From NCBI RefSeq assembly GCF_001679785.1, contig NZ_CP016287.1:1178001-1242000 (forward strand): a stretch of 64,000 nt of DNA, in the 5' to 3' direction. The stretch is from Rhizobium leguminosarum. GTDB lineage: Bacteria > Pseudomonadota > Alphaproteobacteria > Rhizobiales > Rhizobiaceae. Shown piece by piece: positions 229-8,576 of the stretch. Below the pieces are notes generated by a model. It saw nothing but the letters and a program-made list of their open reading frames with translations. It ran no database searches and was not told the DNA's origin. How positions within the stretch are numbered: the first letter of the stretch is position 1; each line of letters opens with the position of its first letter. Both the position numbers and the translations under genes were made by a program.

Positions 229-855
229 ATGGACACCATTGCCCCTAAGATAGACATATTTCAACGCGACGTAACCCGAGAACAGGTGGAGGACGCCATC
301 CGGACCCTGTTGGTATGGGTTGGCGAAGACCCGGCCCGCGAAGGATTATCGGATACGCCGAAACGCGTCGCTACCGCATTTAAGGAGTATTGTGCCGGTT
401 ATGAGGAAGACCCGCGCGATGTTCTGGATCGCACCTTCGAGGAAATCACCGGGTACCGCGATATGGTCGTCTTGCGGCACGTTCCGTTCGAGTCCATGTG
501 CGAACATCATCTGGCTCCCATCATCGGCAATGCGCATGTCGCCTATCTGCCGGTTGGACGGGTGGTCGGCATCAGCAAACTTGCTCGTGTGGTTGACGGC
601 TATTCGCGCCGCCTGCAAATCCAGGAACGCCTCACCGTCGAGATAGCGGAAGCGGTTGACAACGTCTTGAAACCGCGAGGTGCGGCCTGTGTCATCGACG
701 CCGAGCATTTTTGCATGAAATGCCGCGGCGTCCGGAAGAAGGGCAGCTGGATGACGACAAGCCATCTCACCGGCGCGTTCCTGACGGACGATCGCACGCG
801 GCAAGAATTTTATCAGCGCATTCGCTGCGACGGATTCGGCTCGAGGGGACTATAA
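229..855 (+). CDS. folE: GTP cyclohydrolase I (FolE/ToyD-type)
   Basis: Converts GTP to 7,8-dihydroneopterin triphosphate, the first step to folate and to 7-deazapurines. The 208-residue protein is typical in length. Zinc ligands are visible as Cys91 and His94 (CEHHLAPI) and Cys162 (HFCMKC), with the conserved SKLARVVDGYSRRLQIQERLT region between them. ATG 229 is chosen because a GAAGGTG ribosome site lies 6 bases upstream and the protein then starts where FolE proteins usually do; the frame is open further upstream. The stop TAA overlaps the ATG of the purA-like gene (TAATG), so the two are translationally coupled. In this context the enzyme most likely supplies dihydroneopterin triphosphate to QueD rather than folate, as ToyD does in the Streptomyces toyocamycin cluster. 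Identity is secure; the dedicated role is inferred from neighbours. Confidence 0.95.
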   Translation: MDTIAPKIDIFQRDVTREQVEDAIRTLLVWVGEDPAREGLSDTPKRVATAFKEYCAGYEEDPRDVLDRTFEEITGYRDMVVLRHVPFESMCEHHLAPIIGNAHVAYLPVGRVVGISKLARVVDGYSRRLQIQERLTVEIAEAVDNVLKPRGAACVIDAEHFCMKCRGVRKKGSWMTTSHLTGAFLTDDRTRQEFYQRIRCDGFGSRGL

Positions 856-1862
856 TGACCTGTTCCATCGTGGTCGGCGGACAGTGGGGTGACGAGGCGA
901 AAGGCAAGATTTGCAGCTATCTGGCGGTTGCCGATAAAATCTCGGTCGCCTGCCGGGCCGGTTTGGGCCCGGGCGCCGGCCACACCGTGGTTTACGAGGG
1001 GCGCGACTACAAACTGCGCCAATCGCCCAGCGCCTTTATCAACCCGAATACGCGCCTTTTTCTGGGCGCCGGGGTCCTGATCAATAGCGACATTCTGATC
1101 GAAGAGATCACGCGGCTGGGTATCGAAAAGCGTGTCGGTATCGACCCGCGCGCGACCTTGGTCGAGCCACATCACCGCGCAGCTGAAGTCAGAGACGCCA
1201 ATTTGACGAAGACGATCGGCTCCACCGGCAGCGGCCATGGCCCCAGCCTTGCCGATCGCGCCATGCGTCGGGCGCGACGTTCCGCCGATGAGCCTCAACT
1301 GCAAGATTTCCTGGTTGATGTTTCGAAGGAGACGAATGCCTGTCTTGACCGTGGCGAACACGTGTTGATCGAAGGGACCAACGGATATCTTTTGTCTGTC
1401 TTATACGGCACCTATCCCTATGCCGTCGGAAAGGACTCCTGCGCCAGCACCGCTGCCGCCGATATCGGGATTGGGCCGACCCGCGTTGACCATGTCATCG
1501 TGACCTTCAAGGCCTTTCCAACCCGCGTGGGTGCCGGCCCATTCCCAACCGAAATGTCGGCGGATGAGGCAAAAAGGCGGGGGTTTATCCAGTGCGGGAC
1601 TGTCACCGGAAGACCCCGCCGTGTCGGCGAGTTCGATTTCGAGCTGGCGGCCGATGCCGCCCGCGTCAATGGTGCAACGCAATTGGCCGTGACACATCTG
1701 GATTGGCTGGATCCTGGCTGCAACCACCTTCCGATGGATCGCTGGAATTCGGATCTGCGCCGCTTCGTCGATCGCCTGGAGCAAGCGTGCAACGTCCCCG
1801 CGACGCTGCTTGGGACAGGGCCGGATACCCATCACATCGTCGACCGCCGGCATACCCTATGA
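855..1862 (+). CDS. Short adenylosuccinate-synthetase-like enzyme (PurA/ToyG-type)
   Basis: Adenylosuccinate synthetases use GTP to join aspartate to C6 of IMP. Here the likely acceptor is the 7-cyano-7-deaza-IMP analogue, as proposed for ToyG. Family signs are the N-terminal GGQWGDEAKGK (catalytic Asp13) and GAGHT (catalytic His43). At 335 residues it is about 90 shorter than the bacterial housekeeping PurA and resembles compact archaeal or phage forms (also in YKLRQSPSAF and GAGVLINSDI). Two oddities stand out: the glycine after GDE in the P-loop-like motif is Ala15, and the usual Asn before AGHT is replaced (GPGAGHT). Start ATG 855 overlaps the folE stop by one base. Its own stop overlaps the next ATG (ATGA), so it is coupled to the lyase-like gene that would complete amination. 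Confidence 0.85.
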   Translation: MTCSIVVGGQWGDEAKGKICSYLAVADKISVACRAGLGPGAGHTVVYEGRDYKLRQSPSAFINPNTRLFLGAGVLINSDILIEEITRLGIEKRVGIDPRATLVEPHHRAAEVRDANLTKTIGSTGSGHGPSLADRAMRRARRSADEPQLQDFLVDVSKETNACLDRGEHVLIEGTNGYLLSVLYGTYPYAVGKDSCASTAAADIGIGPTRVDHVIVTFKAFPTRVGAGPFPTEMSADEAKRRGFIQCGTVTGRPRRVGEFDFELAADAARVNGATQLAVTHLDWLDPGCNHLPMDRWNSDLRRFVDRLEQACNVPATLLGTGPDTHHIVDRRHTL

Positions 1863-3157
1863 TCCCGCGCTACAGCCGTATGGAAATGACGCAGCTTTGG
1901 TCGCGGGAGCATAGCTATTCCTTGTGGTTAAAAGTCGAATTGCTGGCCTTGGAGGGGATGGAGGCGATCGGCAAGATCCCATCAGGCACCACCGAAATCG
2001 TTCGCTCCCGCGCGACGGTCGACGTGGAGCGGATTGCGGTTCTTGAGGCGCAAGTCCATCATGAGGTTATTGCATTCCTGACATCCGTCTCCGAACAGGT
2101 CGGCATAGAGGGGCGCTTTATTCACTACGGAATGACGTCTTCGGACATGCTCGATACGGCGCTTGCCGTGCAGACGTGCCAAGCGATAGATCTCCTTCTT
2201 GCCGAGATCGACGATCTCACGAACACGCTCCGCCAACTGGCGGAAGAACATCGTGGGACCCTATGCCTTGCCCGCACCCATGGAAGGGGCGCCGAGCCGA
2301 CGACTTTTGGGCTAAAACTTGCCGGTTTCTTTGCCGAATTCCGACGCAGTGCGCGTCGCCTTGCCGAAGCCAGACGGGAAATGGCGGTCTGCAAACTGGC
2401 GGGCGCCGTCGGCACCTATGCCACCATCGACCCTCGCGTCGAAAACTTCGTCGCCGCCGCGTTGAGCCTTACGCCGGAAACCGTGGCAACCCAGGCAGTC
2501 GCGCGCGACAGGCATGCCTCGGTAATGACCGGCCTGGCGATCCTGGCGGGCGCGATAGAACGTCTTGCGACCGAATTGCGCCATCTGCAGCGGCAGGAAG
2601 TCGAAGAGGTTGCGGAAGGTTTTTCAGCGACGCAAAAGGGCTCCTCGGCCATGCCCCATAAACGCAACCCGATTTTCTCTGAAAATCTGACCGGCCTCGC
2701 GAGACTTATCCGCGCGTCGGCGATGCCCGTCTTGGAGAATATCGCGCTGTGGCACGAACGGGATATGTCCCACTCGTCAGTTGAGCGCGTGGCCCTGCCC
2801 GATGCATTCAGCCTGTGCGATTTCGCACTTGCGCGCCTGAGCGGGATTATGCGCGGGCTAGAGGTTCGACCCGATAGAATGCGCGCAAACCTGGACGCCA
2901 TGCGGGGTGGTTTCGCCTCGCAGCGAGTTTTGCTGTCCCTGATCGATGCAGGCCTCAGCCGCGAACGCGCCTATGCAATGGTTCAACAGGCCGCGGCCCG
3001 CGCGGTAGATCAGGGCATGACTTTCAGGGACGCGGCTCTCCTGGAGCCAGAATTGACGACCCACATATCCGTGGAGGAGATTGACGTGGCCACCGATCCC
3101 GCCTGCTATTTGGCGAATGTCGATTTCATTTTTGCGCGCGCTTTTGCCGAGCTGTGA
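1859..3157 (+). CDS. Adenylosuccinate-lyase-like enzyme (PurB/ToyF-type)
   Basis: Member of the fumarase/aspartase superfamily that removes fumarate from the adenylosuccinate-type intermediate, leaving a 6-amino group. The superfamily signature SSAMPHKRNPIFSE begins at Ser262 and contains the flexible-loop catalytic serine, and HYGMTSSDMLD near residue 90 is the PurB substrate motif. The 432-residue length is normal for PurB. ATG 1859 overlaps the preceding stop (ATGA); the frame is open for another 89 codons upstream, but that part only shadows the purA-like gene. With the preceding gene it forms the two-step amination module that converts an inosine-like to an adenosine-like 7-deazapurine nucleotide in toyocamycin synthesis. 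It ends the plus-strand unit, facing queE 56 bp away. Confidence 0.88.
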   Translation: MIPRYSRMEMTQLWSREHSYSLWLKVELLALEGMEAIGKIPSGTTEIVRSRATVDVERIAVLEAQVHHEVIAFLTSVSEQVGIEGRFIHYGMTSSDMLDTALAVQTCQAIDLLLAEIDDLTNTLRQLAEEHRGTLCLARTHGRGAEPTTFGLKLAGFFAEFRRSARRLAEARREMAVCKLAGAVGTYATIDPRVENFVAAALSLTPETVATQAVARDRHASVMTGLAILAGAIERLATELRHLQRQEVEEVAEGFSATQKGSSAMPHKRNPIFSENLTGLARLIRASAMPVLENIALWHERDMSHSSVERVALPDAFSLCDFALARLSGIMRGLEVRPDRMRANLDAMRGGFASQRVLLSLIDAGLSRERAYAMVQQAAARAVDQGMTFRDAALLEPELTTHISVEEIDVATDPACYLANVDFIFARAFAEL

Positions 3158-7885: not shown

Positions 7886-7958
7886 TGGTTGCATATTTAA
7901 AATTGCAATGCGAGAATGGTCTCGAAGATGTCGTGAATCCTAGCGCAGTGGGGAAACC

Positions 7959-8576
7959 ATGCAGGAATATCATTTGATCACGCGTGAAATCGGTATCGAT
8001 GCGGCCCACCGTATCCCGCACCACGAGTCGAAATGCCATAACTTGCACGGTCATCGATATAAGATTGCCGCGACTTGCGTGGGCCCCCTGTGTGGCGACG
8101 GGGAGCAGACTGGCATGGTCCTCGATTTCGGTTTCTTGAAGGACGAAATGATGGCCGAGATCGATGCCTGCTGCGATCATGGCATGATGATTTGGGTAGA
8201 CGATCCCTGGATCGGCTCCTTTCTCCCCGAAAACGCATCTGAAGCCAAGGCCGCCGCGGTTCTGCGGAAATACCGTGACGAGGTGACCCATGCCGGTCAA
8301 AAGCTGATCGAAGGTCCATTCGGCAAGACACTTTTGCTGGCGAGCGTGCCAACTGCGGAGAACCTCGCGAAGCATTGGTTCGATAGGCTGGCACCCCGCG
8401 TTAGGTTCCGAAGCCATAACCGCGCACATCTCCTGCGAGTAGAGGTTTGGGAAACGCCAAACTGTATGGCGACATACAACACCCAGGATCCAGACTGGTT
8501 CGCGTTCGATGCGGTGCCGAAACTGCCCTCCGGCAGATTGAGTCATTTGGCAGGTTACGACTCCGGATTGAGCTGA
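7959..8576 (+). CDS. queD: 6-carboxy-5,6,7,8-tetrahydropterin synthase (QueD/ToyB-type)
   Basis: Makes 6-carboxytetrahydropterin from the FolE product. Zinc ligands are His17 (DAAHRIP) and His30/His32 (LHGHRY), with catalytic Cys26 between them (SKCHNLHGH) and a CDHGMM motif near residue 72. At 205 residues it is much longer than the E. coli enzyme of about 120; the extra residues form an insertion between the CDHGMM and PTAENLAK regions and a C-terminal extension, a layout seen in longer QueD/PTPS forms. ATG 7959 follows a weak GGGGA site. It is transcribed divergently from the phosphoribosyltransferase operon. Together with FolE, QueE and QueC it completes the GTP-to-preQ0 pathway within 8.4 kb. 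Confidence 0.92.
   Translation: MQEYHLITREIGIDAAHRIPHHESKCHNLHGHRYKIAATCVGPLCGDGEQTGMVLDFGFLKDEMMAEIDACCDHGMMIWVDDPWIGSFLPENASEAKAAAVLRKYRDEVTHAGQKLIEGPFGKTLLLASVPTAENLAKHWFDRLAPRVRFRSHNRAHLLRVEVWETPNCMATYNTQDPDWFAFDAVPKLPSGRLSHLAGYDSGLS

Follow-up and report, generated by a model that had tools for sequence, protein, structure and literature searches.

We examined a 64,000-nucleotide stretch of Rhizobium leguminosarum DNA (the window; positions 1178001-1242000 of contig C2 in a genome of 8.57 Mb and 8 contigs) that opens inside a block of 13 genes. Ten of these match enzyme families of 7-deazapurine nucleoside synthesis, and the three that precede them encode a small precursor-like peptide, a ligase, and a protease. 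Positions count from the first base of the window, with negative numbers lying before it, and the best family match of each protein is given in brackets. On the + strand, FolE, GTP cyclohydrolase I (229-855; GTP_cyclohydroI, 8.5e-72), is followed by a PurA-like, short adenylosuccinate synthetase homologue (ToyG role; 855-1862; Adenylsucc_synt, 7e-72) and a PurB-like adenylosuccinate lyase homologue (ToyF role; 1859-3157; Lyase_1, 1.2e-49, with ADSL_C). Next, on the - strand, come a QueE-like radical S-adenosylmethionine protein in the role of 7-carboxy-7-deazaguanine synthase (3214-3909; Radical_SAM, 9.5e-11, with CX3CX2C seen by eye), an IMPDH/GMP-reductase (GMPR)-like protein (ToyE role; 3906-5111; IMPDH, 1.6e-123), a Co-type nitrile hydratase alpha homologue (5108-5779; NHase_alpha, 8.9e-51, with CTLCSC seen by eye), QueC, the 7-cyano-7-deazaguanine (preQ0) synthase (5779-6483; QueC, 1.3e-76), a HAD phosphatase-like protein (ToyI role; 6558-7223; HAD_2, 1.6e-15), and a purine-type phosphoribosyltransferase (ToyH role; 7220-7792; Pribosyltran, 1.3e-19). 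A QueD-like protein in the role of 6-carboxytetrahydropterin synthase ends the series on the + strand (7959-8576; PTPS, 1.8e-32). The QueE-like and QueD-like proteins score under their NCBIfam cut-offs, the former with every QueE model. Many of the frames overlap or abut as in operons, namely at 853-857 (folE stop and purA start), 1859-1862 (purA and purB), 3906-3909 (queE and the GMPR-like gene), 5108-5111 (the GMPR-like and nitrile hydratase alpha genes), 5779 (nitrile hydratase alpha and queC), and 7220-7223 (HAD and phosphoribosyltransferase).

An earlier reading of the window (the original prediction) had named these ten families at 229-8576, and all ten were recovered there as open frames matching them. 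As a whole unit that interval is too short, since the unit starts some 3.3 kb upstream of position 1 with three extra genes, all on the + strand. The first encodes an 84-aa precursor-like peptide with the tail VVGVRRPY (C2:1174908-1175162, window -3092 to -2838) and the second a 496-aa PaaK/F390-synthetase-like protein, a predicted adenylating ligase (C2:1175255-1176745, window -2745 to -1255; AMP-binding, 4.1e-4, under the Pfam cut-off), both outside the window. The third encodes a 485-aa subtilase of family S8 (G000:C2:1176742-1178199, window -1258 to 199, with its 3′ end at 1-199; Peptidase_S8, 6.4e-14), in which no signal peptide was seen on inspection by eye.

BLAST comparison delimited one block of about 11.86 kb, from -3267 to 8578-8590, that is common to this contig and three R. 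leguminosarum plasmids at identities of 98.2%, 98.1%, and 97.4%. It holds the ten nucleoside genes together with those for the peptide, ligase, and subtilase upstream, and its in-window part, assigned to neither strand, spans 1-8590. The peptide is 88 aa long on the three plasmids versus 84 aa here, a 12-base difference. At least 80% of window positions 1-9000 is carried by 7 of 19 matching plasmid records, all 7 from R. leguminosarum. Because the flanks differ among the plasmids and are rich in insertion sequence elements, the 13-gene block is probably a mobile cassette. Transposase-like frames, several of them identical and partly inverted copies, were seen on both sides of it (window 9128-14100; L018 1071-14617). 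Within the genus its occurrence is sporadic, with the ligase in 2 of 148 species genomes, this one included, and the cassette is a strain-specific plasmid trait of some R. leguminosarum.

The nucleoside pathway enzymes

The ten enzymes can be arranged into a route to a 7-deazaadenosine. FolE, QueD, QueE, and QueC would form preQ0, which the phosphoribosyltransferase would convert to the preQ0 nucleotide; the GMP-reductase-like enzyme would then take the 2-amino group off, the PurA-like and PurB-like proteins would put the 6-amino group on, the HAD protein would remove the phosphate, and the nitrile hydratase alpha protein would probably turn the 7-nitrile into a 7-carboxamide. The role names used here follow the protein family to which we take each Toy enzyme to belong. 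As outlined in parts of PMC7492574 and PMC12648386, toyocamycin formation runs through ToyD, B, C, and M to preQ0 and then through ToyH, E, G, F, and I. The original prediction had matched the locus to this pathway one for one. A protein of each nucleotide-forming family is indeed present, but among the 13 proteins no counterpart of ToyK, ToyL, or ToyA turned up. Where sangivamycin producers have a three-part nitrile hydratase, ToyJ-K-L, only NHase_alpha was found among the 13, and no beta subunit gene was recognized in the unit; a LAL-type regulator like ToyA was likewise missing from the 13 proteins, the rest of the genome not having been searched. With the start used here, the nitrile hydratase alpha protein is without the first ∼30-60 residues of ordinary alpha chains, its matches to solved chains starting at its own residue 9-16 and at chain residue 42 at least, and it continues ∼55-65 residues beyond those matches. 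A ToyJ alpha subunit can reportedly work alone, for which a search for nitrile hydratase papers brought no confirmation, and going by these genes the product could be a nitrile or an amide.

The original prediction would have fallen had the cluster genes been the only copies in the genome, which they are not: further PurA (41-42% identical pieces), PurB (52%), and GuaB (48%) genes lie on contig C1. Against 30 Rhizobiaceae PurBs (that of its own genome and those of 29 of 40 other genomes), the cluster PurB shows 49.8-52.5% identity, whereas the housekeeping PurB of the same genome is 71.7-97.7% identical to these 29. The IMPDH/GMPR-like protein reaches 43-49% identity, over about residues 80-390, with its best match in its own genome and in 38 of the 40 others. 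It is without the CBS region and has IRWT in place of the DRYF flap of the host GuaB, which we take to be the site of the hydrolytic Arg-Tyr pair of IMP dehydrogenase. In a PurA tree of 28 rows (26 of 120 listed relatives and two proteins of this genome), the cluster protein groups with sequences from ligase-linked contigs and Rhodospirillum rubrum, adjoining Streptomyces sequences, and the single housekeeping PurA of this genome stands far off on a long branch. An S. rimosus protein in the neighboring clade (P0202), presumably ToyG, is 55% identical to the cluster PurA-like protein. The PurB tree, which lacked outside rows and put the cluster PurB on a very long branch (8.5), places nothing, so we relied on the identity gaps. 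A position inside the housekeeping clades, which would have contradicted the original prediction, is thus opposed by the gaps for PurB and the GMPR-like protein; the PurB tree does not bear on it, and the PurA tree has a single housekeeping row on a long branch. Own-genome searches and the identity gaps together ruled out housekeeping paralogues. PurZ-type 2-aminoadenine synthesis was also rejected, as the PurA-like protein scores 164 against the cut-off of 300 for NF038379 and keeps the GDE aspartate, along with the GHT histidine.

That the locus might be an ordinary 7-deazaguanine locus, for queuosine or for Dpd-type DNA modification, is extremely improbable, and we set this candidate aside. 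No tRNA- or DNA-guanine transglycosylase was recognized among the 13 proteins, which bears out the absence of a DNA transglycosylase noted in the original prediction, and the extra PurA, PurB, and GMPR would have no evident use in making deazaguanine products. In our assessment, the locus very probably encodes a 7-deazaadenosine pathway of the toyocamycin/sangivamycin type.

The peptide family, the ligase, and the subtilase

The peptide encoded upstream has no Pfam family, and its sole NCBIfam match, to TolA at 0.14, is below meaning. A profile built from four such peptides (A3) found 17 proteins at E ≤0.01 among 7992 candidates scored; together with three read from DNA these make up a set of 20. 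The peptides form a family whose members share a leader, an acidic stretch in which every fourth residue is Glu, and a short basic tail. An unbroken Glu-every-4 run of 7-15 units is present in 19 of the 20 and arose in 0 of 2000 shuffles of each, Lys or Arg occurs inside the run in none, and the tail carries a net charge of +1 or +2 in all but two, P0139 and P0125, of which P0125 seems to be truncated. The tails themselves vary, from VVGVRRPY here to GIPGTFRFGR, GFGAPRFGTFR, GGPRFPFMR, TNFGGRMFGR, SPATKT, and others. A leader, a neutralizing acidic piece, and a cationic end would fit a precursor, and apart from the atypical P0139 the arrangement is that of genes for ribosomally synthesized and post-translationally modified peptides (RiPPs): a small precursor with a conserved leader and a variable C-terminal part, with genes for a protease and a candidate modifying enzyme next to it. 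We consider it probable that the peptide is the substrate of both the ligase and the subtilase.

Small frames were also seen upstream of two remote ligase relatives, a repetitive Ala/Glu-rich frame of 127 aa in genome G232 (L031 1104-1487; ligase ∼31% identical) and an Ala/Glu-rich frame of 71 aa ending in DKKSR just upstream on a Roseibium plasmid (L023 11700-11915; ligase ∼27% identical). Both are suggestive and, for want of a Glu-every-4 run, were not counted as family members. The short protein before the Streptomyces relative bears no resemblance to the peptide family.

The peptide could instead be a reusable carrier, its Glu side chains loaded by the ligase and the product freed by the subtilase or another enzyme, much as with amino-group carrier proteins. 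Such a role would suit the regular recurrence of Glu at every fourth position, which is the feature most strictly kept in the family, as well as the adenylation of carboxylates by enzymes of the ligase's fold and the nearly tail-less peptide of genome G714. However, the basic tail present in 18 of the 20 peptides, often with Gly, Phe, and Arg, would be needless on a carrier, and a dedicated protease suits a precursor better; we regard a carrier as quite unlikely.

The ligase scores below the cut-offs of all 8 NCBIfam models listed. Its conserved segments (GTTG, TE, RY..GD, and a near-terminal invariant Lys) fit an adenylating enzyme. A structural model with a predicted local distance difference test (pLDDT) score of 88 and a predicted template modeling (pTM) score of 0.87 lies nearest to BT_0428 and PaaK, followed by NatL2, AjiA1, and ClxA. 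NatL2 and ClxA are not known to need CoA. Since both are involved in ester or amide formation, as described in sections of PMC7204872 and PMC12519233, a peptide-nucleoside ester or amide would be chemically reasonable. NatL2 and ClxA differ from the ligase in sharing only 15-17% identity with it and in their known substrates, which are small aromatic acids. A second mode of action would be that of coenzyme F390 synthetase, in which the analogue triphosphate would stand in for ATP and the nucleotide itself would be transferred to the peptide, at a hydroxyl or a carboxylate. The ligase does show weak F390_ftsA similarity (6.3e-6), several homologues are named CoF synthetase in public records, and adenosine analogues are the end of both pathways with which the ligase is paired. 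Its similarity to acyl ligases is nevertheless stronger, the HAD phosphatase suggests a free nucleoside, and no nucleotide kinase was recognized in the unit, so that nucleotide transfer of this kind seems very unlikely.

A Calothrix plasmid carries a relative of the subtilase (L025 7325-15696), preceded by a small protein like the N-terminal region of that relative and followed by a BMP-family ATP-binding cassette importer.

Pairing with formycin-type genes

In Aminobacter pANY103c and Mesorhizobium MesoLjLa4, an 83-aa peptide followed by a ligase (49% identical) occurs with a subtilase (48%) and a protein of the beta-RFAP-synthase family that matches three PDB entries, each of them ForT (1e-86). 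Among the other proteins encoded there are PurC, PurH, a GMC oxidoreductase, a Rieske protein, and a phosphoribosylanthranilate-isomerase-like protein, and because many protein accessions are common to the two near-identical loci, we counted them as one case. PurC-like and PurH-like enzymes are part of the formycin A pathway. ForT makes the formycin C-nucleoside bond, as reported in portions of PMC8183095 and PMC9832568. Genome G714 has 47-79% matches to fourteen of the Aminobacter proteins, a partial 36% match to a fifteenth, and none to its Nudix and HAD proteins; a 94-aa peptide lies just upstream of the G714 ligase and is 52% identical over 33 residues. In G714, too, the neighbors of the peptide and ligase genes include a subtilase, the ForT-like C-nucleoside synthase, PurC, and PurH. 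One peptide/ligase/protease set thus occurs with two distinct pathways that lead to adenosine analogues. The formycin-type genes (ForT, PurC-like, and PurH-like) are absent from the unit in the window and, conversely, the annotation of the 29-31 kb of the partner loci shows no preQ0 genes.

Peptide and ligase were then compared across larger sets. Ligase scans of 385 class, 397 order, 398 phylum, and 148 genus genomes, in draws that overlap, gave 2, 2, 1, and 2 matches, this genome included. The peptide profile matched the same 2 of the 397 order genomes (1e-21 and 1e-19) and three others weakly. A second profile of 15 peptides, without those of Rhizobium, Aminobacter, and G714, was applied to 24 chosen genomes (three with the ligase, the three with weak matches, and 18 others) and matched exactly the three with the ligase (6e-14, 2e-9, and 2e-9). 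Four of the 17 profile-found peptides share their longest-contig size with one of 120 listed ligases (control mean 0.09, maximum 2), one such pair being from the same named cyanobacterium, and Rhodospirillum rubrum is named in both the ligase and the PurA-relative lists with a contig of 9192 bases. A genome-contig scan for further ligase neighborhoods returned only the copy in R. leguminosarum Vaf-46 and a weak Nitrospirae match, a viral scan one weak match, and a plasmid search with the cyanobacterial ligase P0053 added only weak PaaK-type matches.

These pairings bear on the product that the original prediction had proposed, free toyocamycin or sangivamycin, beside which the peptide, ligase, and protease might serve self-protection, storage, or regulation. 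Each pathway step has a protein, the PurA-like protein is close to that of S. rimosus, and we know of no such peptide set in the Streptomyces toy cluster, all of which would agree with a free nucleoside. Yet the set has been kept together with the pathway and turns up again beside another nucleoside pathway, and counterparts of ToyK, ToyL, and ToyA were not recognized in the unit; a free product is therefore unsupported as originally stated, and we think it unlikely.

Proposed product and comparison with known systems

The pairing of the set with a formycin-type pathway points to a peptide-joined product. Going by gene company, we propose that the toyocamycin-like pathway and the peptide/ligase/protease set together give a peptide-joined adenosine analogue, a reading to which we assign a probability of about 0.5. 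The ligase would probably adenylate a peptide carboxylate, the likeliest being the one on the basic C-terminal tail (VVGVRRPY in this locus), and then pass it to a hydroxyl or amine of the nucleoside, and the subtilase would probably cut off the acidic Glu-repeat spacer to leave a short cationic peptide carrying the adenosine analogue. Peptide-nucleotide conjugates deliver a toxic nucleotide via peptide uptake systems, with microcin C as the main known model. By analogy, the most likely use of the conjugate would be as a Trojan-horse toxin, which we hold with less confidence than the conjugate itself, since no exporter, immunity, or regulator gene was recognized in the block; with no exporter seen among the 13 genes, an intracellular role would be the less likely use. 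More tentatively still than the conjugate, these loci may define a new class of RiPPs with interchangeable nucleoside warheads, in which a PaaK-fold ligase would attach the warhead to a Glu-every-4 precursor and a cytosolic subtilase would release the product. The warhead would be a 7-deazapurine in Rhizobium, and probably also in Rhodospirillum rubrum, but a formycin-type C-nucleoside in Aminobacter, Mesorhizobium, and G714 (which is probably a Prosthecomicrobium). Relatives reach cyanobacteria, and the class would have spread on plasmids among legume symbionts.

Several observations weigh against a peptide-joined product or reduce the weight of the linkage. No exporter, immunity gene, or regulator was recognized among the 13 genes. 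The two positive genomes among the 397 of the order contributed their own proteins to the profiles, which leaves the lack of further positives as the only informative part of that result; the three weak peptide matches (E 1e-4 to 6e-4) were not confirmed by the second profile, and two of the three genomes that this profile did match carry the same cassette. Agreement in contig size is indirect evidence of linkage, and for the 120 listed PurA relatives against the 120 listed ligases it is weak, at 4 agreements with a control mean of 0.55 and a maximum of 4. As to the peptides, the Glu repeat was already part of the profile, and its presence in the 17 found peptides is therefore partly an effect of selection; P0124 and P0125 are near-copies of the window peptide; P0139 is an outlier with a run of 2 and no basic tail that keeps the leader motif and shares its contig size with a ligase contig; and the G714 peptide ends AENVAEAASAKA, with a distinct core hardly present. 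The structural matches of the ligase are loose (TM 0.5-0.6), and its nearest solved relatives by sequence are phenylacetate-CoA ligases. Subtilase relatives lie on Calothrix and Paenibacillus plasmids without a listed ligase, and a related Bradyrhizobium 7-deazapurine cluster has no match to the ligase or the S8 protein.

If the proposal holds, nature would have a second, unrelated peptide-nucleotide machinery, a reinvented microcin C that makes a purine analogue of its own and exchanges one analogue for another from species to species, and the peptide plus ligase would be a genetic search key for new compounds in Gram-negative and cyanobacterial genomes. To our knowledge, toyocamycin- and formycin-type nucleosides are not expected in such genomes. 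As a strain-specific plasmid trait, the cassette may bear on competition among rhizobia. Even if conjugation is wrong, the locus would be a 7-deazaadenosine pathway in a nodule bacterium; our searches of open-access papers, a set without most subscription journals, found no report of a rhizobial 7-deazapurine cluster or of the peptide/ligase pair. PMC11888242 deals with Dpd DNA islands, and the word Rhizobium is absent from the passages checked.

Farther into the window, at 14269-25067 on the - strand, lie an aldehyde-dehydrogenase-like frame (by eye), a 969-aa frame with Cys/Met pyridoxal phosphate (PLP) and glutamine synthetase domains, a fatty-acid-desaturase-like protein, a C26 amidotransferase, and two frames that overlap, one for another Cys/Met PLP enzyme and one for a protein like class V aminotransferases, a set that we take to resemble the rhizobitoxine (rtx) locus.

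Among other deazapurine clusters, that of the Bradyrhizobium plasmids pBb1S5a and p26S5b is 64% (QueE), 56% (GMPR-like), 52% (FolE), and 53% (QueD) identical to the locus in a comparison that was not exhaustive. It differs in having UbiD/UbiX in place of QueC and nitrile hydratase, with UbiD as the ground on which we infer a likeness to tubercidin, and in having no match to the PurA-like and PurB-like proteins, either. These Bradyrhizobium loci (L004 10263-20738 and L005) encode FolE, QueD, QueE, a phosphoribosyltransferase, a GMPR-like protein, UbiD, UbiX, NTP_transf_5, and a thymidylate-kinase-like protein together with two small frames of repetitive sequence (ASAVARRL-like repeat), which may represent another, independent case of a deazapurine paired with a peptide. 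A 7-deazapurine-like set was also seen on a plasmid of Streptomyces sp. NBC_00582 (L038 8072-16008), with QueD, QueE, FolE, a phosphoribosyltransferase, a radical SAM protein, an aminotransferase, HAD, PurC, and two proteins annotated as thymidylate kinase.

With the toy cluster of Streptomyces rimosus and its relatives, the locus shares the preQ0 quartet, the phosphoribosyltransferase, the GMPR-like, PurA-like, PurB-like, and HAD proteins, and nitrile hydratase alpha, and from the phosphoribosyltransferase to HAD these are a set distinct from housekeeping copies. It differs from the toy cluster in its Gram-negative host, in being plasmid-borne in the named records, and in the extra peptide, PaaK-like ligase, and subtilase. 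For microcin C, parts of PMC12250964 describe a ThiF-like MccB that acts on MRTGNAN, with its C-terminal Asn, and on AMP, or CMP in Bacillus. By its sequences, the locus would not be a member of that family, as it encodes no MccB and no short Asn-ended peptide: only P0139 of the 20 family peptides ends in Asn, and none is a short precursor of the MRTGNAN type. In place of the ThiF-like enzyme it has a ligase of PaaK type in sequence and fold, and in place of the short peptide an 84-aa precursor with an acidic spacer, ending in VVGVRRPY. What the proposed system would share with microcin C is its logic, in which an ATP-using enzyme links an adenosine-type group to the end of a ribosomal peptide, here with a purpose-made purine analogue.

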